From a virus, in IMG/VR virus record IMGVR_UViG_3300031141_000030, positions 1 through 29,139 of that record: 29,139 nt of DNA; one strand, 5' to 3'. Position 1 is the first letter of the stretch. The number at the start of each line of letters is the position of its first letter. Of the stretch, positions 4,823 through 28,919 are shown piece by piece. The notes beneath the pieces were generated by a model. It was given only the letters and a program-made list of their open reading frames with translations. It did not search any database and was not told the DNA's origin. The position numbers and the translations under genes are program-made.

Positions 4823-6228
4823 TGGCATTAGCAATAACTCAACACCCTTTATACACACTTAATCCTGTAAGTCAGGAAGTAATATTTACAGTCTTAGATG
4901 AAGATACAGTCGCAGACTATTATAAGGTAAAGTACATAGCTGAAGTTCATATCAGTACAGTAGACATTGACTTAGCTACTACTACAGCTATTGTCGGTAC
5001 TTTCAAGACTACTCCAAACAATTCAGGAGCAGGAATCTTTGACTTCAGTCCAATAGCAGAAAGCTTTGTGAGTCCTGATAACTTAGCAGCAATAGGAAGT
5101 TCATATAAAGGAGATGCAACTTCATCTATTGTAACACACCCATTACACTTAATAAATAAGTTTTCTCTTAACGATAATGCAGTTAGATATGTAAAGATTA
5201 GGTTTAAAGTTGAAGGTTCTACAACAGCTACAGGCAACGCAGTAGTAATAGGTTCTTCAGCAGACTCTAGCCAATATACATTAATCAATGGCTACTTAAA
5301 ATATTCAGACATACAGTATAGAGATGCAACGGGTAACTTTGGATATGATACAGGGGTATTTCAGTTTATTAATGGGGTATCAGGAAGACGTTTCTTAACT
5401 AATGCACCTACTACTCAGTATGCAAATAAGACTGACTACGGAACTCTATCTTTTATGGCTACTCCAAAGACAGGAGATGTTACTAATACGACTATATCTT
5501 ACATAAAAGTTCAAATGTTTGCAGACAATGGAGCTCCTTATGTTACTATAGACATAGACAACACAGACGCAAATGGAGGAAACACAACTTGGGATTCTGA
5601 CACTAAAAATCAGTTACTACACTTTGGTTGTTATCCTGGTAATTTAAGAAATTGGAGTTCAAGTTTTGAAGCATTCATAGGTATGTCAGCTTATTACACT
5701 ATTCAAGCGTATAACAGTTCTAACACTTCAATATCAGACCAATTTACAATTAATATAAACTGCCCTACTAAAAAAGGATTTGAGCCTATAAGACTTACTT
5801 GGTTGAATCAATGGGGAGGTTGGGATTACTACACTTTCACTATGAAGTCTACTAAGACTATCTCAACTAAGGGAAGTACATATCAACAATTAGAAGGAAC
5901 GTGGAACGATAAACTTTACAGTCCTAGTGGTTATAAAGGAGGGAAGAAAGCGTTTAGAGTTAATGCAACTGAAAAGATAAGTATGAATACAGACTTTGTA
6001 AATGAAGCTGAAGCATCTTGGTTTGAAGAACTTATCAATAGTACTGAAGTTTATATACTTGAAGGATATGAAGCTAAAGTAGAAACTACATTTTTACTTA
6101 ATCAATATGTAACACCTGCAAGACTTACTACTTCTAACTTTACTAAAAAGACTATAGCCAACGATAAACTTATTCAATACACTTTTGAAGTTGAAAAGAG
6201 TAAAACCCTTAGAACCCAATCAGTATAA
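4822..6228 (+). CDS. Tail tip/baseplate structural protein
   Basis: A 468-residue beta-rich protein. The N-terminal part has repeated strand-like segments (QEVIFTVLDEDTVADYYKVK, AVRYVKIRFKVEG). The C-terminal third carries a motif I associate with Bacteroidota siphovirus tail proteins: EPIRLTWLNQWGGWDYYTF (about residues 319-337), then a segment ending NEAEASWFEELINSTEVY. No enzyme signature is seen. TAATG junctions on both sides couple it to the neck gene and the 900-aa protein, consistent with a tail-tip sub-assembly. A distal-tail (Dit-like) or baseplate role is likely but inferred. Confidence 0.6.
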   Translation: MALAITQHPLYTLNPVSQEVIFTVLDEDTVADYYKVKYIAEVHISTVDIDLATTTAIVGTFKTTPNNSGAGIFDFSPIAESFVSPDNLAAIGSSYKGDATSSIVTHPLHLINKFSLNDNAVRYVKIRFKVEGSTTATGNAVVIGSSADSSQYTLINGYLKYSDIQYRDATGNFGYDTGVFQFINGVSGRRFLTNAPTTQYANKTDYGTLSFMATPKTGDVTNTTISYIKVQMFADNGAPYVTIDIDNTDANGGNTTWDSDTKNQLLHFGCYPGNLRNWSSSFEAFIGMSAYYTIQAYNSSNTSISDQFTININCPTKKGFEPIRLTWLNQWGGWDYYTFTMKSTKTISTKGSTYQQLEGTWNDKLYSPSGYKGGKKAFRVNATEKISMNTDFVNEAEASWFEELINSTEVYILEGYEAKVETTFLLNQYVTPARLTTSNFTKKTIANDKLIQYTFEVEKSKTLRTQSV

Positions 6229-8930: not shown

Positions 8931-9151
8931 TGCCTGATATTACATACGAAATACCATACCTAAACGGAATGACAGTTAAACCTGTATCAGTTTCAGGACT
9001 AGGAGTAGTTACCTTTACAGACGGAACTAATGACGTTTCTCCTAATCAGTTACAATGTGAAACTTACGGATATACATACAATAGAGCATCAGGAACTTGT
9101 TCGGTGTTCAGATACAGCACAAACTTAAATAGAAGCTTTGAAACTAGCTAA
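8930..9151 (+). CDS. Small Cys-pair protein, tail-associated candidate (73 aa)
   Basis: A 73-residue protein beginning at a TAATG junction with the hub gene. Its C-terminal half contains the compact motif QCETYGYTYNRASGTC, two cysteines about 14 residues apart around a Gly-Tyr-Thr-Tyr core. I have an impression of similar motifs in short proteins beside tail genes of Bacteroidota phages, but have no named family. The N-terminal half is beta-rich. Position between the hub and tape measure genes suggests a minor tail component. There is no signal peptide, so a disulphide would have to form outside the cell, in the virion. Confidence 0.6.
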   Translation: MPDITYEIPYLNGMTVKPVSVSGLGVVTFTDGTNDVSPNQLQCETYGYTYNRASGTCSVFRYSTNLNRSFETS

Positions 9152-9168
9152 AACAAAAAAATAAAACT

Positions 9169-10764
9169 ATGGCAAAGGAAGTATTAGAATTAGAAGTTAA
9201 ATCCGATATAGGGAAGACTACTAAAGAAGCTAATAAACTCGCAAAGAGTATTGATAAATCTACAGAAAACACAAAGGAGTTAAGGGCAGCTTCTAACATT
9301 GGAACTGTTGGATTTGTAAAGCTAAGAAATGCAGTAAGTATGGTTGGAACTGCTTTAAAAGCTTTAGGTATTGGATTGATAGTGGCAGCCTTTGCGACAT
9401 TGAAGCAATTATTCGAACAGAACCAAAAAGTTTTAGATTTCTTTAATACTTCATTTAAGGCGACTTCATTATTATTTAGGGATTTATTTACTTATTTAGA
9501 GAATAATATAGGTAGTTACAAGACCTATATGCAGGAAATGTTTGAAGACCCCACTCCTATGATTGAGAAAATAGGGATTTCTATTAAAGACCATTTTATA
9601 CAGTCTTTAGTATCTTTAAATAAATTTATAGTTCAAGTTTCTAAAAGTTTACTAGCATTTACTCAAATGCGTTTTAAAGATGCAGTTGTTGAAATGGATT
9701 TAGCAGCTTTATCTTTATTGGATACTATAACAGGGGTAGATGGTTCAGCAGAAAAAATTACAAAAACACTAACAAGTGGTGCAGATAAGCTTAAAGAATA
9801 CACTTCTACTATATGGGATACTGCAGAAGGAATGACTGAGTTAGAGAAAAAGGCTCTATTGGCAGAAATTGTATTTTCTAAGTTAAACGCAACTTATTTA
9901 AGAGAAGCAGAAATTCAAAGACAGATAAGAGATGACGTTTCTAAGTCATTTGCAGTAAGACTATCCGCAAATGAAAAGTTAGGAGAAATACTTAAAAATC
10001 AAACAGCAGACCAAATGGTTCAGTTGAAGATTCAGTTAGCTTCAGCTCAAGCAGCAAAAGATTTACAGCCAACAATAGAAAATAAAATAGCTTTAGGTCA
10101 AGCAGAGTTAGCTATACTTGAACTTAAAGAAACTATTGAAGGTCAAATATCTGAACAACTAACTAATCAAACAGGATTAGAGGAAGAATTAAGACAAGGT
10201 AAAGAACAATCTTTAGCAGAAGGAACATTAGGACTAGAAAGAGAATTAGAGGAGCTTAGATTGGCTTATGAAGAAAAGAAAAGGCTAGCAATAAAGTCAG
10301 GAGTTGATACAGCAGCTATTACCAAGCAATACGAAAAACAAAAGACTGATTTAGTTATGGCTAACGTACACGCTCAATTAGAAGCGTTCTCAGGTCTTGC
10401 TAGTGGGTTAAGTGCATTGGCAGGGGATAACAAAGAACTAGCAATAGCATCAGCAGTAATTGACACTTACGTTGGTGCGAATAAGGCATTTGCTCAAGGT
10501 GGTGTTATTGGTTATGTTACAGCAGCAGGAGTTATTGCAGCAGGACTAGCAAATGTTTCAAAGATTATGTCTACAGACGTAGGTAGTGGAGGTGGAGGTT
10601 CAGCACCAACAGAAGCTTCAATCCCTGCACCACAAATGATGTCAGGAGCTTTTGATATATCAGGAGGAGTAGCACCTGAAGCGACTAAGGCTTATGTAGT
10701 AACTGATGAAATGAGTAATAGTCAGAATCAATTAGCTAATATTAGAAGAAGGGCTACAATATAA
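9169..10764 (+). CDS. Tail tape measure protein
   Basis: Sets tail length by serving as the template for tube assembly and is usually ejected with the DNA. The 531-residue sequence has a Lys/Glu-rich helical N-terminus (about 1-45) and a hydrophobic segment around 60-78 (TALKALGIGLIVAAFATLKQ). Helical, Gln/Glu/Lys-rich coiled coil follows (about 235-390), then a hydrophobic Ala/Gly-rich tail (about 400-470) and a Gly-Ser linker. This is the tape measure layout, but short for the family, so the tail should be short for a siphovirus. It lies after the tail-tip genes and far from the chaperone, an inverted order. The start follows an A-rich leader. Confidence 0.85.
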   Translation: MAKEVLELEVKSDIGKTTKEANKLAKSIDKSTENTKELRAASNIGTVGFVKLRNAVSMVGTALKALGIGLIVAAFATLKQLFEQNQKVLDFFNTSFKATSLLFRDLFTYLENNIGSYKTYMQEMFEDPTPMIEKIGISIKDHFIQSLVSLNKFIVQVSKSLLAFTQMRFKDAVVEMDLAALSLLDTITGVDGSAEKITKTLTSGADKLKEYTSTIWDTAEGMTELEKKALLAEIVFSKLNATYLREAEIQRQIRDDVSKSFAVRLSANEKLGEILKNQTADQMVQLKIQLASAQAAKDLQPTIENKIALGQAELAILELKETIEGQISEQLTNQTGLEEELRQGKEQSLAEGTLGLERELEELRLAYEEKKRLAIKSGVDTAAITKQYEKQKTDLVMANVHAQLEAFSGLASGLSALAGDNKELAIASAVIDTYVGANKAFAQGGVIGYVTAAGVIAAGLANVSKIMSTDVGSGGGGSAPTEASIPAPQMMSGAFDISGGVAPEATKAYVVTDEMSNSQNQLANIRRRATI

Positions 10765-10779
10765 AACAAAGGAACTAAA

Positions 10780-10792
10780 TTTCTATTATATA
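10780..10792 (+). promoter_or_regulatory. Late promoter-like motif, copy 3
   Basis: TTTCTATTATATA in the 50-base gap after the tape measure gene. It is preceded by GGAACTAAA and lies 22 bases before the ATG at 10815, leaving room for a short A-rich leader. It is identical to copies 1, 2 and 5 and would drive the coiled-coil protein and prohead protease. Confidence 0.62.
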
Positions 10793-10814: not shown

Positions 10815-11180
10815 ATGAACAAGCCAACACCATTCGGAAAAACTTACAAAGAATATACAGAAGCAGTTGAAAAATTTGAGTTAAGCAAAACTGAAAGAGT
10901 TGAGCTAGGAGCTATTGATGATTTAGAAAGTGATTACTATAAACTTTTATCAACAATAGAACCACATCAAAAGAAAGCATATCAGGAGGGGAACGAAATA
11001 AGTAAAATAGCAGTAAAGTTATTAGATGTTGCACAAAACGCTAAAATATTAATAGGAATGGCTAAAGAATTAGGTGCTGATAGTGTTCAGAAAAGTGCTG
11101 AAAAATTAGAAAAAAATGCTATGGTTAAGTTTAAATATTACGGCAAGGTCGCTGATAATATAGCTAAAGCAACTAAATAA
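10815..11180 (+). CDS. Coiled-coil protein sharing a module with the prohead protease
   Basis: A 121-residue, highly charged helical protein. Its segment KTERVELGAIDDLESD (residues 25-40) followed later by AKELGADS (83-90) matches, in order, KSEKIELGLAQDLDKG (204-219) and AKELGVDL (274-281) in the C-terminal extension of the protease encoded just downstream. The two therefore look like duplicated copies of one helical module. It is the first gene after a late promoter-like motif and ends one base before the protease start. A role in head assembly (scaffold-like or protease partner) is inferred from this pairing. No enzyme motif is seen. Confidence 0.7.
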   Translation: MNKPTPFGKTYKEYTEAVEKFELSKTERVELGAIDDLESDYYKLLSTIEPHQKKAYQEGNEISKIAVKLLDVAQNAKILIGMAKELGADSVQKSAEKLEKNAMVKFKYYGKVADNIAKATK

Positions 11181-11181
11181 T

Positions 11182-12099
11182 ATGAAAGCAACTAAAATAG
11201 TAGAACTTGTAATTGCAGACGATTCTGAAGAGCTGGCAATCGATGCTATTAGCTTAGTAACTAGTCCTGCCATTGAGCAAGACTTTGTATTCTTTGGTAA
11301 AGAGAAAAACAACTTGACATTTGCAAAGGTTGATGAAGAAAAGAGAATGTTAATTTCTCCTGCTTTAATTCCTAATAAGCAAATCTTTAGGCACGACCCT
11401 AATACGGATTCGGATTACTATGTATTCTTTTCAAAAGCGACAGTTGAAAAAGCAGCTTTTTTATACTTAAAACATAATAATCATCACAAAGCAACGTATC
11501 AACATCAAGATAGAGTTTCAGGCGTTCTAACAGTTGAAAGTTGGATTAAAGAAGGCGATAGCGATAAGTCTAAATTATACGGATATGACTTACCTGATGG
11601 AACTTGGTTCGTTAAAATGAAGATTGAGAATGACGAGTTGTGGGAAAAGATAAAAGCAGGAGAACTTAAAGGCCTCAGTATTGAGGGCTATTTTACTAAT
11701 AAATTTGAACAAATGAACAAAAGACAACCAACACAAGAGCAAATACTTTCAGCTTTAAACGAGCTAATCAAAGAATCTAAAACTGAACTGAAGTCTGAAA
11801 AGATTGAGTTGGGATTGGCACAAGATTTAGATAAGGGGATTACAAAAGCAAAAGCAGATATATCTTATTTAAAAAAATTAGATAAAGAAAAGATTCAAGC
11901 ATACAAAACAATAGAAAAAGTATCTGACATAGCATATAATATGGACGATGGTAATTTCTATGCTAAGATTGGTAATGACGCAAATAAAGCAGTAAAACAA
12001 GCTAAAGAATTAGGTGTTGATTTACCTCAAGCTAAAGAAATGAGAGATTTGTCAGAAGACTTTTTTAAGTGGTTTAATAAAGTAAGGTCAAAAAAATAA
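11182..12099 (+). CDS. XkdF-like prohead protease with C-terminal coiled-coil extension
   Basis: The first ~178 of 305 residues match the XkdF-like putative phage serine protease family. Segments are AIDAISLVTSPAIEQDFVFF (20-38), RMLISPALIPNKQIFR (55-70), DYYVFFSKATVEKAAFLYLK (78-97) and LTVESWIKEGDSDKS (116-130). DGTWFVKMKIENDELWEKI and GLSIEGYF close the domain. H108, S120 and S166 are candidate catalytic residues; I cannot choose among them. It should cleave scaffold and capsid-related proteins during head maturation. Residues 179-305 are a charged helical extension homologous to the upstream 121-aa protein, larger than the short tails I expect in this family. The family call is strong; extension function unknown. 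Confidence 0.85.
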   Translation: MKATKIVELVIADDSEELAIDAISLVTSPAIEQDFVFFGKEKNNLTFAKVDEEKRMLISPALIPNKQIFRHDPNTDSDYYVFFSKATVEKAAFLYLKHNNHHKATYQHQDRVSGVLTVESWIKEGDSDKSKLYGYDLPDGTWFVKMKIENDELWEKIKAGELKGLSIEGYFTNKFEQMNKRQPTQEQILSALNELIKESKTELKSEKIELGLAQDLDKGITKAKADISYLKKLDKEKIQAYKTIEKVSDIAYNMDDGNFYAKIGNDANKAVKQAKELGVDLPQAKEMRDLSEDFFKWFNKVRSKK

Positions 12100-12102
12100 T
12101 AC

Positions 12103-12110
12103 TATATTTG
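12103..12110 (+). promoter_or_regulatory. Possible host-type -7 element
   Basis: TATATTTG matches the Bacteroidota -7 consensus TAnnTTTG, 13 bases before the ATG of a 38-codon frame at 12124. No convincing -33 TTG at the right distance was seen, so this is a weak call. Confidence 0.35.
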
Positions 12111-12123: not shown

Positions 12124-12240
12124 ATGAAACCATTCACAGAAGATACAATAGACACTATAATTAAAATAGGAGGTAACGGAACTTTAAACCACCTAAAACC
12201 AAACAGAACAATAACTATTCTATTATATAACAGAACTTAA
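12124..12240 (+). CDS. Possible 38-aa protein between protease and scaffold
   Basis: A 38-codon frame lies in the 161-base gap between protease and scaffold, preceded by a host-type -7 sequence. It begins MKPFTEDTIDTIIKIGGNGT, which looks protein-like, but its last codons run across late promoter-like copy 4 (12218-12229) and encode TITILLYNRT. It may be a small real gene whose 3' end was invaded by the promoter, or chance. I recognise no family. It is included because nothing else explains this gap. Confidence 0.35.
   Translation: MKPFTEDTIDTIIKIGGNGTLNHLKPNRTITILLYNRT
12218..12229 (+). promoter_or_regulatory. Late promoter-like motif, copy 4 (scaffold/capsid)
   Basis: TTCTATTATATA, exact over the 12-base core, lies 31 bases upstream of the scaffold ATG at 12261. 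It would drive scaffold and the major capsid protein, the genes needing highest expression. The following leader is A-rich (AACTATAAAAAGATT before the ATG). Confidence 0.6.
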
Positions 12241-14508: not shown

Positions 14509-14545
14509 AGAGAAGGGTGGCTTAATTGCTACCCTTTTCTCTTTT
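14509..14545 (+). terminator. Intrinsic terminator after tail-tube candidate
   Basis: AGAGAAGGGTGGC (14509-14521) pairs with GCTACCCTTTTCTCT (14528-14542), with one G-T pair and a two-base bulge, around loop TTAATT, followed by TTT. It closes the capsid/tube unit before the next late promoter-like motif. Confidence 0.7.
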
Positions 14546-14587
14546 AAAACAGTTTAAAGTAGTTCAGAACCAAATAAAAACAACTTA

Positions 14588-14600
14588 TTTCTATTATATA
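14588..14600 (+). promoter_or_regulatory. Late promoter-like motif, copy 5
   Basis: TTTCTATTATATA, identical over 13 bases to copies 1-3, ends four bases before the ATG at 14605. It follows the 14509-14545 terminator and is the last copy seen, so it would have to drive roughly 7.5 kb of fibre, portal, connector and lysis genes. Confidence 0.65.
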
Positions 14601-14604: not shown

Positions 14605-15087
14605 ATGATACAAGCAACTACAAAAACTAATATAAAAGCATACTTATCTACAGAGGATAATCGTATAAATACTTCTGTAACTTCTGCTCATATTAGACAC
14701 TTAGTTAAGTTCATTAATGATATGGACGGCTCAATAGTTTATTCTTATCCTGCTGAAGTTATAGCTGATAGATTTACAGAAATGACTTTCACTTATGAAG
14801 CTACAACTCCTAGTGAGTTCTTAGGGGAGGTTAATTTATTACCTTCAGGATATTGGAAGTATGAAGTGTATGAAGTAAGTTGGATAGGAACTGTAAGTAT
14901 TAATTCAGAACAAGCTCCTGCTACTGAGAAAGAAAGCATAGAGCCTATAGGAGACGATATAGGTGTAGTACAGGGATTAGTAACTAAAGGGAAGCTTAAT
15001 CTATCAGACTACAAAGGAACGTCTCAGGTGCAGTATAAAGAACACGAAACAGAAGAAGGAACTAACTATATATATTACGGACAATAA
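14605..15087 (+). CDS. Structural protein of unknown position (160 aa)
   Basis: A 160-residue protein beginning right after late promoter-like copy 5. It has an N-terminal soluble part (TKTNIKAYLSTEDNRINTS), beta-rich middle text (FTEMTFTYEATTPSEFLGEV, SGYWKYEVYEVSW) and an end with KGKLNLSDYKGTSQVQYKEH. The composition looks like a virion component, and the context is capsid, tube and fibre genes. I have seen similar proteins in Bacteroidota phage structural regions but know no assigned function. A tail or baseplate accessory role is a guess from context only. Confidence 0.55.
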   Translation: MIQATTKTNIKAYLSTEDNRINTSVTSAHIRHLVKFINDMDGSIVYSYPAEVIADRFTEMTFTYEATTPSEFLGEVNLLPSGYWKYEVYEVSWIGTVSINSEQAPATEKESIEPIGDDIGVVQGLVTKGKLNLSDYKGTSQVQYKEHETEEGTNYIYYGQ

Positions 15088-15106
15088 CCGAATTAAATAA
15101 AAAACA

Positions 15107-15391
15107 ATGGCAATAGAAAACGTACAACAACTCTTAACAGAGCAATTAGGAAAAAATAGATGTGATGTCTTTACGACTACAGCAATGACTGATAAAGATT
15201 ATTATGCAGTTTACTTTGTAACCGAAAGCGTTATTGAAGAAATAGTTGCAGCTAATATACAATCAGTAGCAGGGAGTTCAGAGCTTAACTTACATACGAC
15301 AATAGCAGCAGGAACAACTTTATTCTTAAACGTAAATGCTATAACTTTGACTAGTGGAATTGCTATAGGTTACTATGACCAAGTAATATAA
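15107..15391 (+). CDS. Small beta-rich structural protein (94 aa)
   Basis: The 94-residue protein has a short helical start (IENVQQLLTEQLGKN) followed by strand-like repeats, ending TLFLNVNAITLTSGIAIGYY. This Thr/Ala/Gly-rich beta composition suggests an exposed virion protein such as a decoration or fibre-associated subunit. It starts after an AT-rich 19-base gap and ends in a TAATG junction with the 55-aa gene that precedes the tail fibre. I recognise no named family, so the structural role is inferred from neighbours and composition. Confidence 0.55.
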   Translation: MAIENVQQLLTEQLGKNRCDVFTTTAMTDKDYYAVYFVTESVIEEIVAANIQSVAGSSELNLHTTIAAGTTLFLNVNAITLTSGIAIGYYDQVI

Positions 15392-15558
15392 TGAAGTTAG
15401 CACTTGGAATGTCATTGCCTTCAAGTAACAAGGGAGGATTAACACCTACTCAGAAACTTGTAAATGCTTTTAAAGCAAGAGTTATTGCTGATGGTGGTAA
15501 CTTTGAAGCTAAGGCTTGTTTAGAAGCACAATTAGTAATATTAAATAATATACAATGA
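15391..15558 (+). CDS. Short conserved-type phage protein (55 aa)
   Basis: A 55-codon frame fills the gap exactly: its ATG overlaps the upstream TAA (TAATG) and its TGA overlaps the fibre ATG (ATGA). The product includes FKARVIADGGNFEAKACL, which resembles a short motif I have met in Bacteroidota phage structural regions (an Arg-Val-x-Ala-Asp-Gly-Gly core followed by Glu and a Cys). An N-terminal MKLALGMSLP stretch precedes it. The motif plus perfect coupling make it a real gene with fair confidence. Function unknown; probably linked to the fibre it precedes. Confidence 0.72.
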   Translation: MKLALGMSLPSSNKGGLTPTQKLVNAFKARVIADGGNFEAKACLEAQLVILNNIQ

Positions 15559-17438
15559 GTTTATTAGATGATGTAAGTATTGTAGTAACACCTAACGGAT
15601 ATAAGGCAGGAGAACTCTATGCAGTTGTTCCTGTACCTACTGAGGGTGCTGATGTGGTTGTAGATGGGGATTTTCCTTTACCTAATACTGCTTGGTCACT
15701 TACTAATGCAACAGTAGAAGTTAATGGAGCAAGGGTAAACAATACTATTGTAGCAGGCTTTGCAGCGTTTAGTCAATTGCTTTCAGGTACTGTAATTGGA
15801 AAACAATTTGTACTTACTTATGATGTGATTGCAACTAATGGTAAAGATTTAGTATTAGACAACAGCACTTCTTTATTTTTAAACACATCAACTACAGGAA
15901 TAAATAGAAAGCTATATTATACTTGGGGTAGAGGGGATAACTATTTAGTAATTAAAAGAGCAGTTGCAGATACGGACGTTACGATAGACAATGTAATACT
16001 ACAAGAATACACAGCAGCTGATATGGACGTAACAAGAGCATCAGCAGCAACAAGAGTAGATGAGAATGGATTAGTTAATTATGCTGAGATTGTAGGAAGT
16101 GAGGAGGTTACTAATGGAGATTTTGCTACTGATAGTGATTGGAGTAAGGCATCTAATTGGACTATTAGTGGTGGTTCAGCAAGTAGTGATGGTGTTTCTG
16201 CAATTTCAAATTTATCTCAAACAGTTGTTGATTTCACGGGTAAAACCTTCTTAGTTGAAGGTGTGGCATCTAATATAACGCAAGGATTTGCTTATATTTC
16301 TTTAGGGGGTTCAGACCTGCAAATAGTTGTAGATAGTAATGGTGCGTTCAGTCATACTATAAGTATATCAACTGCTAACTCTACATTGTTCATATCGGCA
16401 AGGAATAACTTCATAGGCTCTATAGACAACGTATCAGTAAAAGAAGTAACAAGAGATAATGTACCAAGAATAGACTACTCAGGAGGAGGTTGTCCACATA
16501 TATTAGCAGAGCCTATGAGGACTAATTTGGTTACTTATAGTGAGGATTTTACAACTTGGACAACGACAGGCTCAGCAAATGTAACCTCTAACACTACAAT
16601 TTCCCCTGATGGAACACAAAACGCAGATACCTTAGATTTATTAGCAGGAGATTACTTTTATAAGCCAATAACGTCAGGAGCAGGAACTTTTACACTTAGT
16701 TGTTATGTAAAAGTATTGAGTGGTACTTTAGATTTTAAAATGCAAAGTTTTAGTGGAACTGATGGAGCTAATGCGAGTAGTGTTTTTACTGCAAATACTA
16801 ATTGGCAAAGGTTTGAATTTACAACTACTGTTACGGTTGATTCTAACTTTTATCCTGTTCAAGTGAGTGGGCTTGTGGGGGGTGATTTTGAAATATGGGG
16901 AGCTCAATTAGAGTTAGGTTCATACCCAACAAGTATGATTCCAACATCAGGTTCAACAGTAACTCGTAATCAAGACCAATTCTCAAGAGATGGTATAAGT
17001 AGTTTGATTAATAGTACAGAGGGGGTTTTGTTTGTTGAGATGGCTGCATTGGCTAATGATAGTACAAATAGAATGATATCTCTATATGGTTCAGGAAATG
17101 ATAAACTTACTTTGTTTTATAAAACAGCATCAAACAGTATGACAGTACAAGGATTTGTTGGAGGTTCGCTTCAGATAAATAGAACGATAACATTAACAGA
17201 CATAACTCAATTCTCCAAGATAGCTTTAAGATATAAAACAAACGATTTTGCTTGGTATGTTGATGGAGTTAAAAAAACTGATGACACTTCAACTAATACT
17301 TGGAGAGCAAATACATTAACTAAATTAAGTTTTGATGATGGCTCAAGTGGAAATCCTTTATATGCTAAAGTAAAACAATTAAAATTATATAAGGAAGCAC
17401 TTACAAATTCAGAACTAATCACATTAACAACGATATAA
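15555..17438 (+). CDS. Tail fibre/receptor-binding protein with lectin-like domains
   Basis: A 627-residue, Ser/Thr/Gly/Asn-rich protein. It has two similar beta-sandwich modules, each starting near xxxNGDF or VDGDF and ending IDNVxxxE (about 35-152 and 185-298). Between them is the motif VTRASAATRVDENGLV (about 159-174), common in phage fibres. A third module (about 320-470) starts TNLVTYSEDFTTWT. The C-terminus (about 480-627) is LamG/concanavalin-like and ends VKQLKLYKEALTNSEL. These are carbohydrate-binding-type folds, so it should contact surface polysaccharide. It lies upstream of the portal. No chaperone or peptidase motif was seen. Confidence 0.75.
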   Translation: MSLLDDVSIVVTPNGYKAGELYAVVPVPTEGADVVVDGDFPLPNTAWSLTNATVEVNGARVNNTIVAGFAAFSQLLSGTVIGKQFVLTYDVIATNGKDLVLDNSTSLFLNTSTTGINRKLYYTWGRGDNYLVIKRAVADTDVTIDNVILQEYTAADMDVTRASAATRVDENGLVNYAEIVGSEEVTNGDFATDSDWSKASNWTISGGSASSDGVSAISNLSQTVVDFTGKTFLVEGVASNITQGFAYISLGGSDLQIVVDSNGAFSHTISISTANSTLFISARNNFIGSIDNVSVKEVTRDNVPRIDYSGGGCPHILAEPMRTNLVTYSEDFTTWTTTGSANVTSNTTISPDGTQNADTLDLLAGDYFYKPITSGAGTFTLSCYVKVLSGTLDFKMQSFSGTDGANASSVFTANTNWQRFEFTTTVTVDSNFYPVQVSGLVGGDFEIWGAQLELGSYPTSMIPTSGSTVTRNQDQFSRDGISSLINSTEGVLFVEMAALANDSTNRMISLYGSGNDKLTLFYKTASNSMTVQGFVGGSLQINRTITLTDITQFSKIALRYKTNDFAWYVDGVKKTDDTSTNTWRANTLTKLSFDDGSSGNPLYAKVKQLKLYKEALTNSELITLTTI

Positions 17439-17439
17439 A

Positions 17440-17796
17440 ATGAATATATACAAATTACAATACGACTCAAAAGCAGAAGGAGATGCTGACTTACTAGCTA
17501 AAGGTACTTATGAAGTAATAACTGAAGAAGGTGTTACTCAAGATGTGTACAGAAATGGAACTCAAGCAATCGTATATATCGGACAGATAGTAGAAGTTCC
17601 TGCAACTTACGATAAAGATGGTAACGAGCTTACTCCACCTATCTATTACGCAGGAGTATTTTACGACTTAATGACTACAGAAGAATATGATTTCGGAATT
17701 AACGAGGTGTTACCATTAAATTGCGTACATTCGTTTCTTGGTTACGCAAAGAACGCAGAAGGAACAGATATACCTGAAGAATTAACAATAGAATAA
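17440..17796 (+). CDS. Fibre-associated hypothetical protein (118 aa)
   Basis: The gene starts one base after the fibre stop. Its 118-residue product has a helical opening (IYKLQYDSKAEGDADLLAKG), strand-like text (QAIVYIGQIVEVPATYDKD) and an end with LPLNCVHSFLGYAKNAEG. Small genes immediately after fibre genes often encode fibre chaperones or accessory subunits, but this sequence shows no recognised signature. It is acidic and soluble, without signal peptide. Placement between fibre and portal supports a virion or assembly role; identity is unknown. Confidence 0.6.
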   Translation: MNIYKLQYDSKAEGDADLLAKGTYEVITEEGVTQDVYRNGTQAIVYIGQIVEVPATYDKDGNELTPPIYYAGVFYDLMTTEEYDFGINEVLPLNCVHSFLGYAKNAEGTDIPEELTIE

Positions 17797-17801
17797 AACA
17801 A

Positions 17802-19673
17802 ATGAATAACTTACTTTCAATAAACTTAGGCAGTTCAACAGCTCCAAAAATACAAGAGGTTAGAGGTAGGGACTATATAGAATACTCTGATGAAGACGGA
17901 CTATGGAAGAATACCTACCCAAACTTCTTAATTGACCTTTATTATTCCTCATCTACACATTCTGCGATTATTAATTCCACTTCAGAGATGATTGCAGGGG
18001 AGGACATAGTAGTTGATGAAGAAGAAGGAATGGACTTAATTGAAATAGCTAAACTAAAAGCATTTTTAAAGAAGGCTAATAGTAATGAAAGTTGGCATCA
18101 AGTAATTAAGAAAGTATCCTTTGACTTTAAACTTCAAGGAGCTTATGCTTTGCACGTTATTTACAATAGAGAGAAAACAGCTATAGTTGAAGCATACCAC
18201 GTGCCTGTAGAGCGTGTAAGAGCAGGTAGACCGAACGCAATGGGTAAAGTGGACACTTACTATATAAGTGCTGATTGGAGTAACGTAAGGTCTAACAAGC
18301 CCTATCCTGTTGCAGCATTCAATACTAACGATAGAACAGCAGGAAGTCAATTAATATACACAGGTTCTTATAGCCCTAATATGGACATATATTATACTCC
18401 TGACTACCTAGCAGCAAATAATTGGGCTTTGATTGACGCAAAGGTATCTGAATATCATTTGAATAATATCAATAATTCTTTCTCGGGTTCTTATATGTTC
18501 TCTTTTAATAATGGCATCCCTTTAGAGGAAGAAAGAAATCAAATTGAAAGAGATATAACAAACAAATTTACATCAGCAAGTAATGCAGGAAAGTTTTTGA
18601 TGAGTTTCTCAGACGACAAAACTCGTTCCCCTGAAATACACCCTTTAAATACAGCAGACCTCTCAGAGCAATATATTACGCTTCAAGCCCTTTTGGTTCA
18701 GAATATCTTAACAGGGCATAGAGTAACCTCTAAGACGCTTTTAGGCATAGATTCAGACAATGGTTTCTCAAGTAATGCAGATGAACTATTAAATGCAGCA
18801 AATTTCTACCAAAATACAGTAATTAGACCTTTCCAATTAAACATCTTAGGAACACTAGGTAAAATATTTGCAGTTAATCAAATGGACTTGCCTATTAGCT
18901 TTGTTCAGTTGAAACCTATTACTATTCAATTTGACTCTGAAACTATTAGAGATGTAATGACTCAGGACGAAATAAGAGAGTCTTTAGGATTACCTCCATT
19001 AGACGGACAAGATGTTGCAGAAGACTTTACTACTCAACTATCAGAAGATAAAACTGAACTAGATTCTTTTATTGAAGAATTTGGAGAGGATATGTCAGAA
19101 GAATGGGAACTAGTAGAAGAAGAAGTAGTTGATGGAGAACACCAAGACTTTGACTATGAAGAAGTACTAAACGATATAGCAGGAGAAAAGATTGAACTAG
19201 CTTCAACAGGAAGAGCAATTCCTAGTCGTAAGTCAGAACAAGACGGACTATCTAAAAAGTCTTTTGATTACTTTAGAGTAAGGTATGTATATTCTCAAGA
19301 TAATTTCTTGACAAGTAAGACAGGAGAAAAAAGGGATTTCTGCAAGAAAATGACAGCAGCTAAAAAACTTTACAGAAAGGAAGATATTATCAATATGGGT
19401 TCTAAGGAAGTGAATAAAGGTTGGGGTCCTAAGGGTAATTCAGATACATACTCTATATGGCTTTACAAAGGAGGAGGTAATTGCCACCACTTTTGGAGTA
19501 GACGTATCTTTAAAACTACAATAGGAGATTCTAAGACTACTAAGATAGAAGATGCTGATATGATAGGTTACACTAAAGCTAAGTCAGAAGGATTTACAGC
19601 TAAGAAGAACGACAAGTTAGTAGCAACACCACCAAAGAAAATGAAGAATAACGGATTTTTAAAACCTAGATAA
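17802..19673 (+). CDS. Portal protein with C-terminal Cys/His domain
   Basis: Residues 1-405 of 623 read as a phage portal: the N-terminal wing (YPNFLIDLYYSSSTHSAIIN), LQGAYALHVIYNREKTAIVE (111-130), VPVERVRAG and YHLNNINNSFSGSYMFSF. A crown/stem region with RPFQLNILGTLGKIF and the portal-like end TQDEIRESLGLPPLDGQ (388-404) follow. It forms the dodecameric DNA channel that docks the terminase. Residues 405-465 are an acidic linker. Residues 480-623 form an extra basic domain with RDFCKKM (C514), YRKEDIINM, DTYSIWLYKGGGNCHHFW (549-566) and a Lys-rich tail. The Cys/His cluster suggests metal or nucleic-acid binding, unproven. It lies far from the terminase. Confidence 0.82.
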   Translation: MNNLLSINLGSSTAPKIQEVRGRDYIEYSDEDGLWKNTYPNFLIDLYYSSSTHSAIINSTSEMIAGEDIVVDEEEGMDLIEIAKLKAFLKKANSNESWHQVIKKVSFDFKLQGAYALHVIYNREKTAIVEAYHVPVERVRAGRPNAMGKVDTYYISADWSNVRSNKPYPVAAFNTNDRTAGSQLIYTGSYSPNMDIYYTPDYLAANNWALIDAKVSEYHLNNINNSFSGSYMFSFNNGIPLEEERNQIERDITNKFTSASNAGKFLMSFSDDKTRSPEIHPLNTADLSEQYITLQALLVQNILTGHRVTSKTLLGIDSDNGFSSNADELLNAANFYQNTVIRPFQLNILGTLGKIFAVNQMDLPISFVQLKPITIQFDSETIRDVMTQDEIRESLGLPPLDGQDVAEDFTTQLSEDKTELDSFIEEFGEDMSEEWELVEEEVVDGEHQDFDYEEVLNDIAGEKIELASTGRAIPSRKSEQDGLSKKSFDYFRVRYVYSQDNFLTSKTGEKRDFCKKMTAAKKLYRKEDIINMGSKEVNKGWGPKGNSDTYSIWLYKGGGNCHHFWSRRIFKTTIGDSKTTKIEDADMIGYTKAKSEGFTAKKNDKLVATPPKKMKNNGFLKPR

Positions 19674-19675
19674 TT

Positions 19676-20188
19676 ATGGGATACGTACTATTTATATCAG
19701 AAGCTAAACTAAAAGAATCTACAGCAATCAATTTGAATGTAGATGTTGAGCTATTACTTCCTTATACTCGACAAGCACAGAAAGTATATTGTGAAACTAA
19801 ATTAGGAACAGACTTAACGCAAAAATTGAAAGACTTAATAATAGCAGGAACAGTTGGTTCATCAGGGAATGAAGCTTACAAGACTTTGTTAGATGACTAC
19901 ATTGGGGATATGCTTCCAAATTGGGGATTGTATTTATTAGTTCCTTTTTTAAGATTTAAAGTAGAGAATGGAAACATATACTCTAAGACTTCAGAAACGG
20001 GTAACGCTCTTAGCACAGAAGAAGCACAACATTTTCGTGAAGAAATAAGAAACACTAGCGAGTACTACACCGAACGAATGATTAGTTATATCTGTAACAA
20101 CTCAAGCCTTTTTCCTGAATATACTACTAACACAGGTTCAGATGTACAGCCGAGTCATTCAGCATACTTTAATGGATTACATATATAA
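19676..20188 (+). CDS. Head-tail connector (DUF6712-like)
   Basis: The 170-residue, largely helical protein starts two bases after the portal stop. The pattern LFISEAKLKESTAINLNVDVE, then LLPYTRQAQKVYCETKLGTD and LLDDYIGDMLPNWGLYLLVP, is that of the DUF6712 family of Bacteroidota phage proteins. Its all-helical fold resembles gp6-type adaptors that sit under the portal. Adjacency to the portal is the expected place. The end includes FREEIRNTSEYYTERMISYI, another connector-type helix. It ends in a TAATG junction with a small basic frame. The general role is fairly secure; the family name is from memory of the pattern. Confidence 0.7.
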   Translation: MGYVLFISEAKLKESTAINLNVDVELLLPYTRQAQKVYCETKLGTDLTQKLKDLIIAGTVGSSGNEAYKTLLDDYIGDMLPNWGLYLLVPFLRFKVENGNIYSKTSETGNALSTEEAQHFREEIRNTSEYYTERMISYICNNSSLFPEYTTNTGSDVQPSHSAYFNGLHI

Positions 20189-20307
20189 TGAAGAAACATT
20201 ACAAGCCAAAACAAATTAATATAACTAAACTAAAGTCCTACTTGGACAAAAAGCCTAAAACAAATGAAAGAAGTACAAGACACCTTACAAGTAGGGATAG
20301 CAAATAG
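20188..20307 (+). CDS. Possible 39-aa basic protein
   Basis: A 39-codon frame starting in a TAATG junction with the connector gene. The product is very basic (MKKHYKPKQINITKLKSYLD then a Lys/Arg/Ser-rich tail) and soluble. Its 3' end overlaps the holin candidate by 44 bases in another frame, which is long for this genome. Coupling favours a real gene, the overlap weakens it. It might serve mainly to feed ribosomes toward the holin start. Confidence 0.45.
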   Translation: MKKHYKPKQINITKLKSYLDKKPKTNERSTRHLTSRDSK

Positions 20308-20428
20308 TACAGCAATAGTATTTAGTTTATCAAGTGCTAATGAAATTTTAACACTTGTCAGTTTAACTCTAGCTATATCTTATACAATTTATAAATTCGT
20401 AAAGTTTGAAGAACACCAAGATAGATAA
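20264..20428 (+). CDS. Holin candidate (54 aa, one membrane segment)
   Basis: The 54-residue product has a short polar N-terminus (MKEVQDTLQVGIANST), a hydrophobic stretch around residues 17-43 (NEILTLVSLTLAISYTIYKF) and a charged end KFEEHQDR. Size, single or hairpin membrane segment and charged tail fit small phage holins, and similar small proteins occur in lysis regions of Bacteroidota phages. It overlaps both neighbours and directly precedes the DUF5675 gene. The final codons overlap the TTG start at 20406. Holin identity is inferred from topology and position; it could be an antiholin paired with the membrane protein at 20834. Confidence 0.6.
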   Translation: MKEVQDTLQVGIANSTAIVFSLSSANEILTLVSLTLAISYTIYKFVKFEEHQDR

Positions 20429-20837
20429 AATACAGCTCGTATTAATTAGAGATACATTCTCAGAGAATAGTACATTAGGAGAATTAAGTCTTAATGGAGT
20501 AAGGATTTGCGACACTCTTGAAAACCCTTGGAAAGATAATATAAGAAACATAAGTTGTATTCCTGAAGGGGAGTATGACGTAAGACTTAGATACCCTAGA
20601 GAATCAGGTACTAGGGACTACTTACACTTATTAATCAAAGGGGTTCAGGATAGAAGCTATGTTCTCGTGCATATCGGAAATTTTGTACATCAGACCAAAG
20701 GTTGTGTTCTAGTAGGCTTATCTAGTTCACAGGACGTTGTTAATAACTCTAAGCTTGCAATGGACTTACTTATGAAAGAAATCATTAATTTAGGCGGCAC
20801 AAATATTAACTTAATAATTAAAAAAAAAGTATTATGA
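20406..20837 (+). CDS. DUF5675 protein, probable lysis enzyme
   Basis: The 143-residue product matches DUF5675: an N-terminal strand KIQLVLIRDTFSENSTLGEL, then CDTLENPW and CIPEGEYDVRLRYP. The signature HIGNFVHQTKGCVLVG (about residues 86-101) follows, whose His and Cys resemble an L,D-transpeptidase-like active site. It lies between two small membrane proteins where an endolysin is expected, and no other lysozyme, amidase or peptidase was found. Murein-directed activity is therefore a reasonable inference but unproven for the family as far as I know. The only upstream start in frame near the domain is TTG at 20406. It ends in an ATGA overlap. Confidence 0.68.
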   Translation: MKNTKIDKIQLVLIRDTFSENSTLGELSLNGVRICDTLENPWKDNIRNISCIPEGEYDVRLRYPRESGTRDYLHLLIKGVQDRSYVLVHIGNFVHQTKGCVLVGLSSSQDVVNNSKLAMDLLMKEIINLGGTNINLIIKKKVL

Positions 20838-21028
20838 AAAAATGGATAATTTTCCAAACATTGAAAAAGATGTTCGCAAGTCGTAAGTTCCTTTACACAG
20901 TAGTAGGAATAATCGTTCAACTATTAAGTGATAATTGGGGTATTGACCCTGAAGTATCACAAAACATTCTTTATTCTTTAGTGGCACTTGTAATCGGTCA
21001 AGGTGTTGCGGATTCTCGTAAAGCATAG
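20834..21028 (+). CDS. Small membrane protein, holin-like (64 aa)
   Basis: A 64-residue protein: basic N-terminus (MKKWIIFQTLKKMFASRKFL), a hydrophobic segment about 21-32 (TVVGIIVQLLSD), a short polar turn around NWGIDPEVSQ, and a second hydrophobic segment about 45-58 (LYSLVALVIGQGVADS). This hairpin topology and the ending GQGVADS are common in phage holin-like proteins. ATGA overlap with the DUF5675 gene puts it in the lysis cassette. Either it or the 54-aa protein could be the pore former; the other may modulate timing. Confidence 0.6.
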   Translation: MKKWIIFQTLKKMFASRKFLYTVVGIIVQLLSDNWGIDPEVSQNILYSLVALVIGQGVADSRKA

Positions 21029-21037
21029 TTAGACTTA

Positions 21038-22120
21038 ATGTCTGAGAATGGAAAAAGACTAAGGCTTTCCTCTGAAGAAGTTGAGTTAATCAATGAGCAC
21101 AGAGGAGAGTCTTTACAAAACATTAACGGCAATACTGCTTTAGATATGCACCTACAAGATAGGGGTATTGATAAGAAAGATATTGTAAGCGTTAAGCATT
21201 GGCAGAATATGGGAGGGGATTTACGCTTTTCCATAGTTACTAAAGAACAATATGGTACAGACCAAAACGATTTACTTGAAGACGTTAAGAACCTAATAGA
21301 TAATCACGCACCTACTTATCCGAAAATTAAAAGAGTAAAGGGAGATAACTTACTTATCATAAACCCTGCTGATATTCATATCGGAAAACTAGCAGTTGCT
21401 TTAGAAACAGGAGAAGACTACAATACAGAGATAGCTTGCGAAAGAGTCTTAGAAGGAGTTAAAGGACTTATAAGTAAGTCGCAAGGGTTTAATGTTGATA
21501 GAGTATTATTCTGTATTGGTAACGACATTCTACATACAGATAACGTAATGTCAAGTACTACACGTGGTACATACCAAGACACAGATGGTAAATGGTGGCA
21601 ACATTATGAAATAGCTTTAAAGCTTTACGTTAAATGCGTTGAGATACTTAGACAAGTTGCACCTGTAGACGTTGTTCATTCAATGTCTAATCACGATTTC
21701 CAAAGTGGATTCCATTTAGCACACGCATTACAATCTTGGTTTAGAAAAGCTGATGACGTTACATTTGATATATCAGTAGCCAACAGAAAATACTATAAGT
21801 ACGGAACTAATCTTATAGGACTCGAACACGGAGATGGTGCTAAAATGGATTTACTTCCTATGCTTATGGCAAATGAGAAACCAAAGGAATGGGCTGAAAC
21901 TTCTCATAGGTATTGGTACTTACATCACGTACATCATAAAGTAAAATACAAATGGTTAGACGGAAAAGACTTCATAGGTTGTACTGTTGAATATATGCGT
22001 AGTCCTTCAGCAGCCGATAGTTGGCACGCAGGAAAAGGTTATCTTTCAGCACCCGCAGTAGAAGGATTCATTCATTCCAAAGACTCAGGGCAAATAGCTA
22101 GACTAGTACACTATTTCTAG
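21038..22120 (+). CDS. Calcineurin-like metallophosphoesterase
   Basis: The 360-residue protein has an N-terminal helical/DNA-binding-like region (SSEEVELINEHRG; residues 1-70) and a phosphoesterase core. Core motifs are INPADIHIGK (D112, H114), FCIGNDILHTDN (G161-D163), MSNHDFQ (N218, H219), GLEHGDG (H264) and LHHVHHKV (H297-H300). These are the two-metal ligands of the calcineurin fold, so it should hydrolyse phosphoesters, with substrate unknown (nucleic acid or nucleotide). It is the last gene before the 22161-22211 hairpin. It has no adjacent nuclease partner of the SbcCD type. The fold is certain enough; the biological role is open. Confidence 0.82.
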   Translation: MSENGKRLRLSSEEVELINEHRGESLQNINGNTALDMHLQDRGIDKKDIVSVKHWQNMGGDLRFSIVTKEQYGTDQNDLLEDVKNLIDNHAPTYPKIKRVKGDNLLIINPADIHIGKLAVALETGEDYNTEIACERVLEGVKGLISKSQGFNVDRVLFCIGNDILHTDNVMSSTTRGTYQDTDGKWWQHYEIALKLYVKCVEILRQVAPVDVVHSMSNHDFQSGFHLAHALQSWFRKADDVTFDISVANRKYYKYGTNLIGLEHGDGAKMDLLPMLMANEKPKEWAETSHRYWYLHHVHHKVKYKWLDGKDFIGCTVEYMRSPSAADSWHAGKGYLSAPAVEGFIHSKDSGQIARLVHYF

Positions 22121-22219: not shown

Positions 22220-22227
22220 TAACTTTG
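22220..22227 (+). promoter_or_regulatory. Host-type promoter -7 element, upstream copy
   Basis: TAACTTTG matches the Bacteroidota -7 consensus TAnnTTTG just after the boundary hairpin. A -33 element is not clear. It may be a tandem promoter with the stronger candidate 43 bases further on. Confidence 0.4.
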
Positions 22228-22246
22228 TAAATAAAGTTGTGAATAA

Positions 22247-22277
22247 TTGTGTGAGTAACTTTAAAAGTGTACTTTTG
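22247..22277 (+). promoter_or_regulatory. Host-type early promoter
   Basis: TTG at 22247-22249 and TACTTTTG at 22270-22277 are separated by 20 bases, matching the Bacteroidota promoter (TTG, about 20, TAnnTTTG). The transcript would begin a few bases later and reach the ATG at 22303, after an A-rich leader. It should drive the early/replication operon with the host sigma factor. Its position rules out the GTG at 22267 as the gene start. Confidence 0.7.
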
Positions 22278-26733: not shown

Positions 26734-26741
26734 TATCTTTG
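26734..26741 (+). promoter_or_regulatory. Host-type -7 element before 122-aa gene
   Basis: TATCTTTG (TAnnTTTG) ends four bases before the ATG at 26746, so any transcript would be nearly leaderless. A TTG at 26717-26719 is only 14 bases upstream, too close for an ideal -33. It lies in the 21-base gap after NinG and may give the methyltransferase/sigma genes separate expression. Confidence 0.45.
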
Positions 26742-26745: not shown

Positions 26746-27114
26746 ATGACAGAAAGCCCTGAAACCATTTATGCAAATGAAGAACATAGAACAATAGTTG
26801 AAACATATATTACTATGTGTAAAGAGTTCGCAAAGGACGTAAGTACATTAAGCCGTTATGAAAACTATTTAGAAGTTGTATCTGTTATTTTAGAATACTC
26901 AAATGCATATGGAGCAGTAGATTCAAGAGAACAGAACTTTTGGGATTGGATAATGATTATCCCTATAAACCTTTCAGTAGCAACTAACGGATTCTTTGCA
27001 GGAGTTGAAACAAAGAGTAACGCAGCAAAGGTTAGGTCATACGGAATACTCTTAGACAGGTTGTTAGAAGACACAGTTAGCAAGATTGATGGAATAGAAA
27101 CTATAAAAGAATAA
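26746..27114 (+). CDS. Hypothetical protein (122 aa)
   Basis: A 122-residue soluble helical protein with acidic N-terminus (MTESPETIYANEEHRTIVET), a middle DSREQNFWDWIMIIPINLSV and a C-terminal helix ILLDRLLEDTVSKIDGIE. The hydrophobic middle is short and probably buried rather than membrane-spanning. It is preceded by its own TAnnTTTG element and ends two bases before the methyltransferase, so it may open a small transcription unit with the methyltransferase, sigma-like and Cys-rich genes. No family recognised. Confidence 0.62.
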   Translation: MTESPETIYANEEHRTIVETYITMCKEFAKDVSTLSRYENYLEVVSVILEYSNAYGAVDSREQNFWDWIMIIPINLSVATNGFFAGVETKSNAAKVRSYGILLDRLLEDTVSKIDGIETIKE

Positions 27115-27116: not shown

Positions 27117-27950
27117 ATGAATGTATTGAGTTTATTTGATGGAATGAGTTGTGGTCAGATAGCATTAGAACGTGCAGGAATTAAAGTAGATAATTACTTT
27201 GCAGCTGAAATTAAGAAACACGCTATTGAAGTAACACAGCATAATTATCCAAACACTAAACAACTAGGAGATGTAACAAAAATAGAAGGAAAAGACTTAC
27301 CTAAAATAGATTTACTTATAGGGGGTTCTCCTTGTCAGGATTTCAGCAGAGCAAACAAAGAAAGAAAAGGAGTAGAGGGTTCTAAGTCTAGTTTATTCTT
27401 TGAGTATGTTAGATTGTTAAAAGAATGTAAACCGAAATACTTTCTTTTAGAGAATGTAATAATGTCAGATTATAACTATTGGTTTATTTGTAATGAGTTA
27501 GATTGTGAGCCTGTAAGAATTTGTGGAAGTCTAGTTAGTGGTGCTTTAAGAGATAGGCTTTATTGGACAAACATACCACCATTTAGTTATGATATAACAG
27601 GAAGATTGATTAGTAACATACCACAACCAAAAGACGAGAAAATATATCTTCAAAATATATTAGATAGTGGTACTACTGATAAAAGAAAGCACTCTTGTTT
27701 AAACTGTAAGTCAGGTTACGAAACGCCTAATCAAGAATCTTTAATACACAGAAATAATACTACAGGAATGATTACTTTAATTAAAGAAAAGGAACGTGTT
27801 AGGTTAGTTAATCAAAATGAATTAGAAAAATTACATAATATTCCAAAAGGATATACTAGTATTTTAAATAAGACAAAAGCAGGAGATTTAATAGGAGATG
27901 GTTGGACTGTAGATGTGGCGACTCATATTTTTAAAAATATAAAAGAATAA
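27117..27950 (+). CDS. DNA cytosine-C5 methyltransferase (orphan)
   Basis: The 277-residue protein transfers a methyl group from S-adenosylmethionine to C5 of cytosine. Motifs in order: I LSLFDGMSCGQIALERAG (4-21), IV GGSPCQDFSRAN with catalytic C73, VI LLENV (110-114), VIII GALRDRLYW (142-150), IX RVRLVNQNELEKLHNIP, and X IGDGWTVDVATHIF (259-272). The target-recognition region (about 155-225) is short, with two Cys (C194, C197), resembling compact Dnmt3-like phage enzymes. No restriction enzyme is adjacent, so self-protection against host restriction is likely. An ATGA-type junction couples it to the sigma-like gene. Confidence 0.93.
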   Translation: MNVLSLFDGMSCGQIALERAGIKVDNYFAAEIKKHAIEVTQHNYPNTKQLGDVTKIEGKDLPKIDLLIGGSPCQDFSRANKERKGVEGSKSSLFFEYVRLLKECKPKYFLLENVIMSDYNYWFICNELDCEPVRICGSLVSGALRDRLYWTNIPPFSYDITGRLISNIPQPKDEKIYLQNILDSGTTDKRKHSCLNCKSGYETPNQESLIHRNNTTGMITLIKEKERVRLVNQNELEKLHNIPKGYTSILNKTKAGDLIGDGWTVDVATHIFKNIKE

Positions 27951-28519
27951 TGAAAGACATCTATAAAGAAATAGCTAAGCTATCAGATAAGTTCAGAACT
28001 ATGGCTTATGGATTAACATCAGACGAAAATGAAGTGAATGAATCGGTTCAGGAACTTATGCTCTATCTACTTCAGATGAATAAATCTACACTTTCTGCAA
28101 TTTACGAAAAGGACGGAATAGACGGAGTTACACGTTACGGAGCAGTAGCACTAAGACGTGCATTGACAAGTCCTAGAAGTAATTACTATTACAAGTACAA
28201 AAAGTACTACACGCATATTGACAGCTTGACAAGTGCAGTAACTTATAATGAAATGGAAACAGGGGAGACAATCCCTTCTAAGCACCTTTATAACCTTCCT
28301 AACGACATAATAGACGATTACCAATGGACTAGCCTTGAGAAGATAGATAAAGCCTTAGAAGACAATTTTTCTTGGTACGATACTAAGGTCTTCCAATTAT
28401 ACTACCACGAGAACAACACGTTAGACTCACTAGCAAAGAAGACAGGAATAAGTAGAAACAGTCTATTCACAACGATTGACAAAGTAAGAGTGCAACTTAA
28501 ACAAAAACTAAGTGAATAA
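27950..28519 (+). CDS. Phage sigma-factor-like protein
   Basis: The 189-residue product resembles Bacteroidota phage proteins annotated as RNA polymerase sigma factors. Residues about 5-75 look like a reduced region 2 (KLSDKFRTMAYGLTSDENEV, then ESVQELMLYLLQMNK and YGAVALRRALTS). Residues 128-189 form a region 4: SLEKIDKALEDN, YDTKVFQLYYHENNTLDSLA and the HTH AKKTGISRNSLFTTIDKVR. The middle carries many Tyr/Lys. It could direct host polymerase to phage late promoters, and TTCTATTATATA copies are candidates. It overlaps the methyltransferase stop by one base. The HTH is clear; sigma activity is inferred. Confidence 0.72.
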   Translation: MKDIYKEIAKLSDKFRTMAYGLTSDENEVNESVQELMLYLLQMNKSTLSAIYEKDGIDGVTRYGAVALRRALTSPRSNYYYKYKKYYTHIDSLTSAVTYNEMETGETIPSKHLYNLPNDIIDDYQWTSLEKIDKALEDNFSWYDTKVFQLYYHENNTLDSLAKKTGISRNSLFTTIDKVRVQLKQKLSE

Positions 28520-28919
28520 GTTCTTTGTACCGAAAGAGATATATGAAGATAGAATGACTATCTGTAAAGGTTGTACTTACTACTCAAGTGTATTAGGAAA
28601 TTGCACAATTTGTTCCTGTTTTATGAAAGTGAAGTCAAGAATCAGCAGTCAATCTTGTCCAAAGAAGTATTGGTTAAAGACAAAAGAAATTGAAGTTAGT
28701 AAAGAAATACCACAGGAATTAATAAAAGAAGTTGTAGATTTGTACCCTGACTTAAAAACAGGAAGGGCTAAAGACATAAAGGCTAAGAAGAAAATGATAG
28801 AACTTTACAATGTAATATACGGAGCAAACTATTCAACCACTACTAATTGTGGGAGTTGTATCTCAACTTGCTTTGATGGTATAAAAAAGATATATAAAGA
28901 ATATTCTAGGATTAATTAA
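28512..28919 (+). CDS. Cys-rich zinc-finger-like protein (135 aa)
   Basis: Starts at GTG 28512, overlapping the sigma-like gene by eight bases; an in-frame ATG at about 28555 would drop little but keep the cysteines. The N-terminal part has CKGCTYY, GNCTICSCFMK and SCPKKYW, giving six to seven Cys in about 40 residues, a zinc-binding pattern common in small Bacteroidota phage proteins. The middle (EIPQELIKEVVDLYPDLKTG) is helical. The end has CGSCISTCFDGIKKIYKEY, another Cys cluster. It may bind DNA or polymerase as a partner of the sigma-like protein, inferred from coupling only. Confidence 0.65.
   Translation: MNKFFVPKEIYEDRMTICKGCTYYSSVLGNCTICSCFMKVKSRISSQSCPKKYWLKTKEIEVSKEIPQELIKEVVDLYPDLKTGRAKDIKAKKKMIELYNVIYGANYSTTTNCGSCISTCFDGIKKIYKEYSRIN

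Follow-up and report, generated by a model that had tools for sequence, protein, structure and literature searches.

A probable ECF-type sigma factor and its predicted late promoters in a marine virus with a flavobacteria-type host

Bacteriophages that pair a sigma factor of their own with late promoters dedicated to it are well established, Salmonella phage 7-11 and phiEco32 being examples (PMC8948821). As described there, the sigma factor gp47 of phage 7-11 is paired with late promoters of the form GTAAtg-(16)-aCTA, and gp36 of phiEco32 with single-box promoters (tAATGTAtA), a form ascribed to absent region-4 homology. For Bacteroidota phages, no described late sigma factor with its promoters was found in the literature searched, an absence that is no proof, since most subscription papers lie outside that literature, and the exact string of the motif reported here occurred in no relevant paper of that literature. 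On the host side, the -7 element of Flavobacterium johnsoniae is TAHHTTTG, with transcription starting 4-5 nt downstream (PMC6847099).

The window, as we call the whole stretch of 29,139 nucleotides under study, appears to represent a 29-kb marine virus with a flavobacteria-type host, the host being suggested by the relatives of the virus and by promoter type. It is very likely, in our judgement, that this virus encodes an ECF-type sigma factor which switches transcription from host to phage control at five late promoters. Host RNA polymerase carrying the Bacteroidota primary sigma would transcribe the early operons, that of the phage sigma included, from TAHHTTTG boxes; the phage sigma would bind host core polymerase and direct it to five two-box late promoters. 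There, recognition of a (C/T)AAA(T/C)(A/G)AA box (about -32 to -25) would fall to sigma-4, recognition and melting of TTCTATTATATA (about -14 to -3) to sigma-2, and transcription would start at a conserved YR step, mostly at the A of the ATG or two bases before it. Within this scheme we infer core binding, promoter binding, start site and timing. The predicted late promoters of the window are:

1190-1219, + strand: late promoter 1, with upstream box CAAATGAA and core TTCTATTATATA; the TerS ATG lies 2 nt past the core box.
2874-2903, + strand: late promoter 2, with upstream box AAACTAAA, ahead of the virion unit 2908-10764; ATG 4 nt past the core.
10763-10792, + strand: late promoter 3, with upstream box AAAACAAA, ahead of 10815-12099; leader of about 20 nt.
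12200-12229, + strand: late promoter 4, with upstream box CAAACAGA, ahead of 12261 and the capsid-like gene at 12939.
14571-14600, + strand: late promoter 5, with upstream box CAAATAAA, ahead of 14605-22120 (the portal gene unit); ATG 4 nt past the core.

All five are copies of a rigid two-box element, (C/T)AAA(T/C)(A/G)AA-N9-TTTCTATTATATA with minor deviations, and all are intergenic, on the coding strand and placed solely ahead of virion-gene units. A 36-nt matrix recovered these five sites and no others in the window, and none in 12 dinucleotide shuffles. Mismatch counts of short motif variants in the window alone were not decisive, because an AT-rich genome yields many; what decided was the two-box matrix together with the strand comparison across relatives. 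A terminator-like hairpin (AGAGAAGGGTGGC...GCTACCCTTTTCTCTTTT) stands at 14509-14545, directly before late promoter 5, and T-rich ends like that of this hairpin precede late promoter 5 in most relatives. Within the late region there is also a host-type box, TATATTTG, at 12103-12110, upstream of late promoter 4, with a short ORF downstream of it from near 12124.

Comparison was made across 28 sequences, namely the window and contigs of 27 relatives, nearly all of 25-36 kb. The exact core TTCTATTATATA occurs 83 times on their coding strand, always between genes, and three times on the opposite strand, and the matrix finds 126 coding-strand sites against one on the other strand; in 11 held-out genomes the corresponding matrix counts are 46 and 0. 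A reversed-pattern control gave 0 occurrences, and the coding strand is almost free of single-base variants of the motif. When loci were collected with a gap of 6-10 and the boxes then searched for at a free gap of 4-14, the gap between boxes was 9 at every one of 124 sites. Against phage records, blastn with a 41-nt consensus returned chance-level matches only. The original prediction of a repeated non-host promoter restricted to virion genes is thus borne out, by the five sites of the window and, in its relatives, by sites confined to the coding strand ahead of late units.

The motif travels with the sigma gene, which is carried by all 11 motif-selected contigs of at least 25 kb and is missing from 4 among 16 motif-selected contigs, all four under 24 kb. 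Since the relatives form one phage family with most virion genes in common, shared descent could explain this co-occurrence, which is not independent evidence by itself; several early genes (26746, 28512, a replication initiator and a 107-aa SSB-like gene) occur about as widely as the sigma gene. Many early genes differ among relatives while the late promoters persist. In four relatives (G017, G019, G023 and G025), the two late promoters that frame the terminase genes of the window enclose a large terminase of another type; G017 and G025 differ in the type of their small terminase as well, with the promoters still in place. The terminase module (window 1222-2875) looks to have been exchanged as a promoter-framed cassette.

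The putative sigma factor and its domains are placed as follows:

27950-28519, + strand: ECF-like phage sigma factor of 189 aa (sigma-2, linker, sigma-4), assigned from the ORF, family conservation, AlphaFold2 with Foldseek, and hhalign to ECF sigmas.
27950-28219, + strand: sigma-2-like domain, residues 1-90, with ENEVNESVQELMLYLL aligned to ECF region 2.1/2.2 and helix 45-73 corresponding to 2.3/2.4.
28325-28513, + strand: sigma-4-like HTH domain, residues 126-188, with the recognition helix at about 169-188.

Relatives of this protein are encoded on about 600 IMG/VR stretches, and in the genome collection on only two contigs. PAPR01000004.1 and PBGL02000003.1 are phage relatives that lie inside MAGs labelled Pseudooceanicola and Euryarchaeota, and are apparently mis-binned phage contigs. 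Simple sequence searches recover little of the protein's nature. No Pfam sigma model scored the window protein above its curated cut-off, the region-4 matches falling below it; among 20 diverse family members, Sigma70_r4 matched weakly in 18 and Sigma70_r4_2 matched in 15, and Sigma70_r2 gave no Pfam-level match in the window protein or in the family members searched. Two tblastn queries against 50,697 phage records (INPHARED) returned zero matches and a third a single weak partial one (E 0.1), and sequence-only searches for a solved relative yielded nothing convincing.

Structure prediction is more informative. AlphaFold2, given 55 homologues, produced a model (pLDDT 80 overall) with a helical N-terminal domain at residues 1-84 and an HTH domain at 128-188, both mostly at pLDDT 80-95. 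The disordered linker between them, about 40 residues long, is the least conserved stretch of the protein; best conserved are helix 158-165 and the recognition helix. Regions 1.1 and 3 are absent from the model, which consists of the two domains and the disordered linker only. The best PDB matches found by Foldseek are ECF sigmas (M. tuberculosis SigL and SigH, Bartonella RpoE, SigW), with probability about 1.0 and E-values from 2e-3 upward, none of them under 1e-3. Low global TM-scores are what an arbitrary mutual placement of the two domains would give. In the BFVD viral library the matches include annotated sigma-24/ECF proteins, the best (E 1e-8) being to an unnamed entry. Profile alignment by hhalign to five ECF sigmas from an unrelated alphaproteobacterial MAG is colinear over the two domains: ENEVNESVQELMLYLL falls on the region 2.1/2.2 helix, and the C-terminal end on region 4. 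The score is 25.2 against at most 5.4 in 30 column-shuffled controls, with a modest probability of 32%. Against sigmas outside the ECF group, which are longer, hhalign of the family gave no match, so that ECF is the class that fits, and by predicted fold and profile alignment we call the product of 27950-28519 a putative ECF-type sigma factor. The C-terminal HTH of region 4 type that the original prediction had described from the letters of the sequence stands, on the AlphaFold2 structure, the weak Sigma70_r4 matches and hhalign, and both of the folds on which that prediction had staked itself, region 2 and region 4, are predicted by AlphaFold2 and Foldseek; its description of region 2 as reduced does not hold, the domain being of normal size for an ECF sigma.

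The closest cultured relatives found are the Nonlabens/Persicivirga phages P12024S and P12024L, whose capsid and portal proteins are 25% and 31% identical to those of the window. In P12024S the syntenic protein matches Pfam Sigma70_r2 above cut-off (E 1.4e-5), and the window-family profile aligns to the N-terminal domain of the P12024S/L sigma, the only part where homology is detectable. Late units of these phages carry AAACAAA-N15/16-GTTAATATA-NN-ATG with small deviations; in P12024S it stands at the CDS starting at 3031, 5412, 23961, 25201 and 26802, five times on the coding strand and never on the other (0.02 expected), and a further related copy at 179 has no clear upstream box. Different sigma factors would thus be paired with different core boxes, while the upstream box, the layout and the placement at start codons are kept; P12024S/L is the only clearly separate case of this putative sigma-motif pairing. 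Closer to the window, all seven sampled promoters of clade G012/L146 have T changed to A at position 6, which is one event; the same shift occurs elsewhere at about 4 of 121 sites, these sites not being independent. In the helix matching sigma 2.3/2.4, the G012 sigma has three rare substitutions (G64A, A65T, R69N), but the co-change is only suggestive, because in G013 three of five sites are shifted without G012's sigma changes. The correlated change of motif and sigma that had been proposed as a check is therefore clear for P12024S/L and suggestive for G012, although in G012 it falls in region 2 and not, as had been foreseen, in the region-4 helix; no link between change in that helix and the motif was found, the helix being nearly invariant within the family. 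A different arrangement is seen in Flavobacterium phage 11b, which has a large terminase of 55% identity: tblastn detected no sigma homologue, and host-type TATATTTG boxes stand ahead of its late-region genes at 11209, 12618, 20400 and 21103. On account of these host-type boxes, we reject the notion that a motif of this kind is general to the late units of such phages.

The alternative that survives best, although we think it improbable, is that the protein is a sigma-derived late activator of the RinA/ArpU type, its HTH binding the upstream box and recruiting host holoenzyme with the host sigma kept. Genes for such activators sit just before the terminase module, as the sigma gene does here, solely the C-terminal HTH reaches Pfam, and the protein has a weak PHROG match to a 'transcriptional regulator' family. 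Against this reading, the predicted fold and the alignment of the N-terminal domain are those of a sigma-2, with the 2.1/2.2 helix included, and P12024S has a Pfam-level sigma-2 at the syntenic place; moreover the late core TTCTATTATATA lacks the host TAHHTTTG, so that host holoenzyme would be left with no -10 element.

Four further features of the window concern its early genes:

22220-22277, + strand: two host-type boxes, TAACTTTG and TACTTTTG, at 22220 and 22270, ahead of the early gene block.
26734-26741, + strand: host-type -7 box TATCTTTG heading the sigma operon, with ATG 26746 4 nt later (consensus from PMC6847099).
26746-27114, + strand: conserved 122-aa gene, first in the sigma operon, in which no Pfam domain was found.
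28512-28919, + strand: Cys-rich DUF6171 protein (PF19668 above cut-off), whose gene overlaps the stop codon of the sigma gene.

In 23 of 27 genomes the sigma gene is preceded, at a distance of 361 nt in most and of 1216 nt in the window, by a TAHHTTTG box of host type that is followed after 3-7 nt by an ATG; the 1.5 kb ahead of the gene contains a late box in none of the 27. In P12024S a host box, TATATTTG, lies 4 nt before 19644, the first gene of the run that contains its sigma. In the window, a C5-cytosine methylase gene (27117-27950) is interposed between the sigma gene and the host-type promoter; its stop codon coincides with the start of the sigma ORF, and homologues of it were detected in only two of the 28 genomes (window included) and one of the 11. 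Host boxes at the sigma operon and the early block are the arrangement expected of a switch from host to phage sigma; the early-to-late switch of the original prediction is upheld as far as this arrangement goes, while its timing would follow by inference.

The last two of these genes follow the sigma gene closely in occurrence, that at 26746-27114 being found in 11 of 11 motif-selected and 27 of 28 other sequences, as for the sigma gene, and that at 28512-28919 sharing the sigma's occurrence pattern. The DUF6171 protein is a candidate cofactor. By the same matching pattern, another early protein such as one of these two could read the motif while the sigma-like gene does something else, a reading to which we give very little weight: Pfam recognises no DNA-binding domain in either, a promoter-recognition fold was found in no candidate but the sigma, and the rigid spacing of two boxes suits a protein made of sigma-2 and sigma-4.

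Across 425 distinct sites the first ATG begins 2 nt past the core box in 153 and 4 nt past it in 94, with a distance of 0 in four cases and of 1 in none. A YR step occupies positions 13-14, counted from the first T of TTCTATTATATA, at 389 of the 425, longer-leader sites included. That TTCTATTATATA is a translation or RNA signal beside start codons and no promoter, as its usual place 2-4 nt before the ATG might suggest, is scarcely credible, given that box and YR step are unchanged with leaders of up to about 31 nt, that a second box stands at a fixed upstream spacing, that only about five genes per genome carry it, and that early genes and the late units of 11b carry the host promoter box instead. 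Taking the core box as part of a promoter, with the predicted +1 at the YR purine, gives the two boxes the positions set out above, and the simplest reading is that many late mRNAs are leaderless; as a class, the late mRNAs are predicted to be leaderless or nearly so. Such a class would stand out in a host like F. johnsoniae, where 87% of predicted transcripts have leaders of more than 10 nt (PMC6847099).

Beyond the window, we lean towards the view that flavobacterial phages share a widespread ECF-type late-sigma regulon with promoters fused to start codons and a leaderless mRNA class, in which sigma-2 and the -10 box co-evolve and the upstream box is nearly fixed. Hundreds of uncultured marine phage contigs would thereby gain a predicted regulon, specificity studies could draw on sigma/promoter pairs that form a natural series, and the cultured pair P12024S/L (host Persicivirga IMCC12024) makes the regulon directly testable. 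Bacteroidota are, to our knowledge, a phylum without Shine-Dalgarno initiation, and class-wide leaderless late mRNAs are a prediction for it; if true, phages would be making a leaderless class inside a host with mostly leadered mRNAs.

The novelty lies in the sigma family and the promoter, in the Bacteroidota setting, in the design that links promoter to start codon, and in the matched second pair in a cultured phage. Like 7-11 gp47, the system would combine a phage sigma, host core polymerase, bipartite late promoters and host sigma for early genes; it differs in the sigma and the boxes, the host of 7-11 is enterobacterial, and a start linked to the ATG is not reported in the accessible part of PMC8948821. 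With phiEco32 gp36, as presented there, it shares a phage sigma driving middle and late genes, but gp36 promoters have one box, whereas the window system has a predicted sigma-4 and an upstream box. T4 gp55/gp33/gp45 (PMC2988020, PMC7892883) is alike in its phage specificity factor and AT-rich late -10 element but needs a sliding clamp and a co-activator, where the window would rely on one sigma-2/sigma-4 protein and two boxes. RinA/ArpU-type activators lack the sigma-2 domain that is predicted for the window protein. Bacterial ECF sigmas (SigL, SigH, SigW, RpoE) correspond in sigma-2/sigma-4 architecture, fold and colinear profile alignment; the window system, unlike them, has no recognised anti-sigma, very AT-rich boxes and a sigma below Pfam cut-offs. 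Nearest of all are P12024S_33 and P12024L_35, annotated only as 'containing Sigma-70 region 2': these phages share with the window a syntenic sigma-2 protein, a host-type operon box, distant capsid and portal homologues and an ATG-linked two-box late motif, and differ in their -10-like box, GTTAATATA, and in a box spacing 1-2 nt longer.
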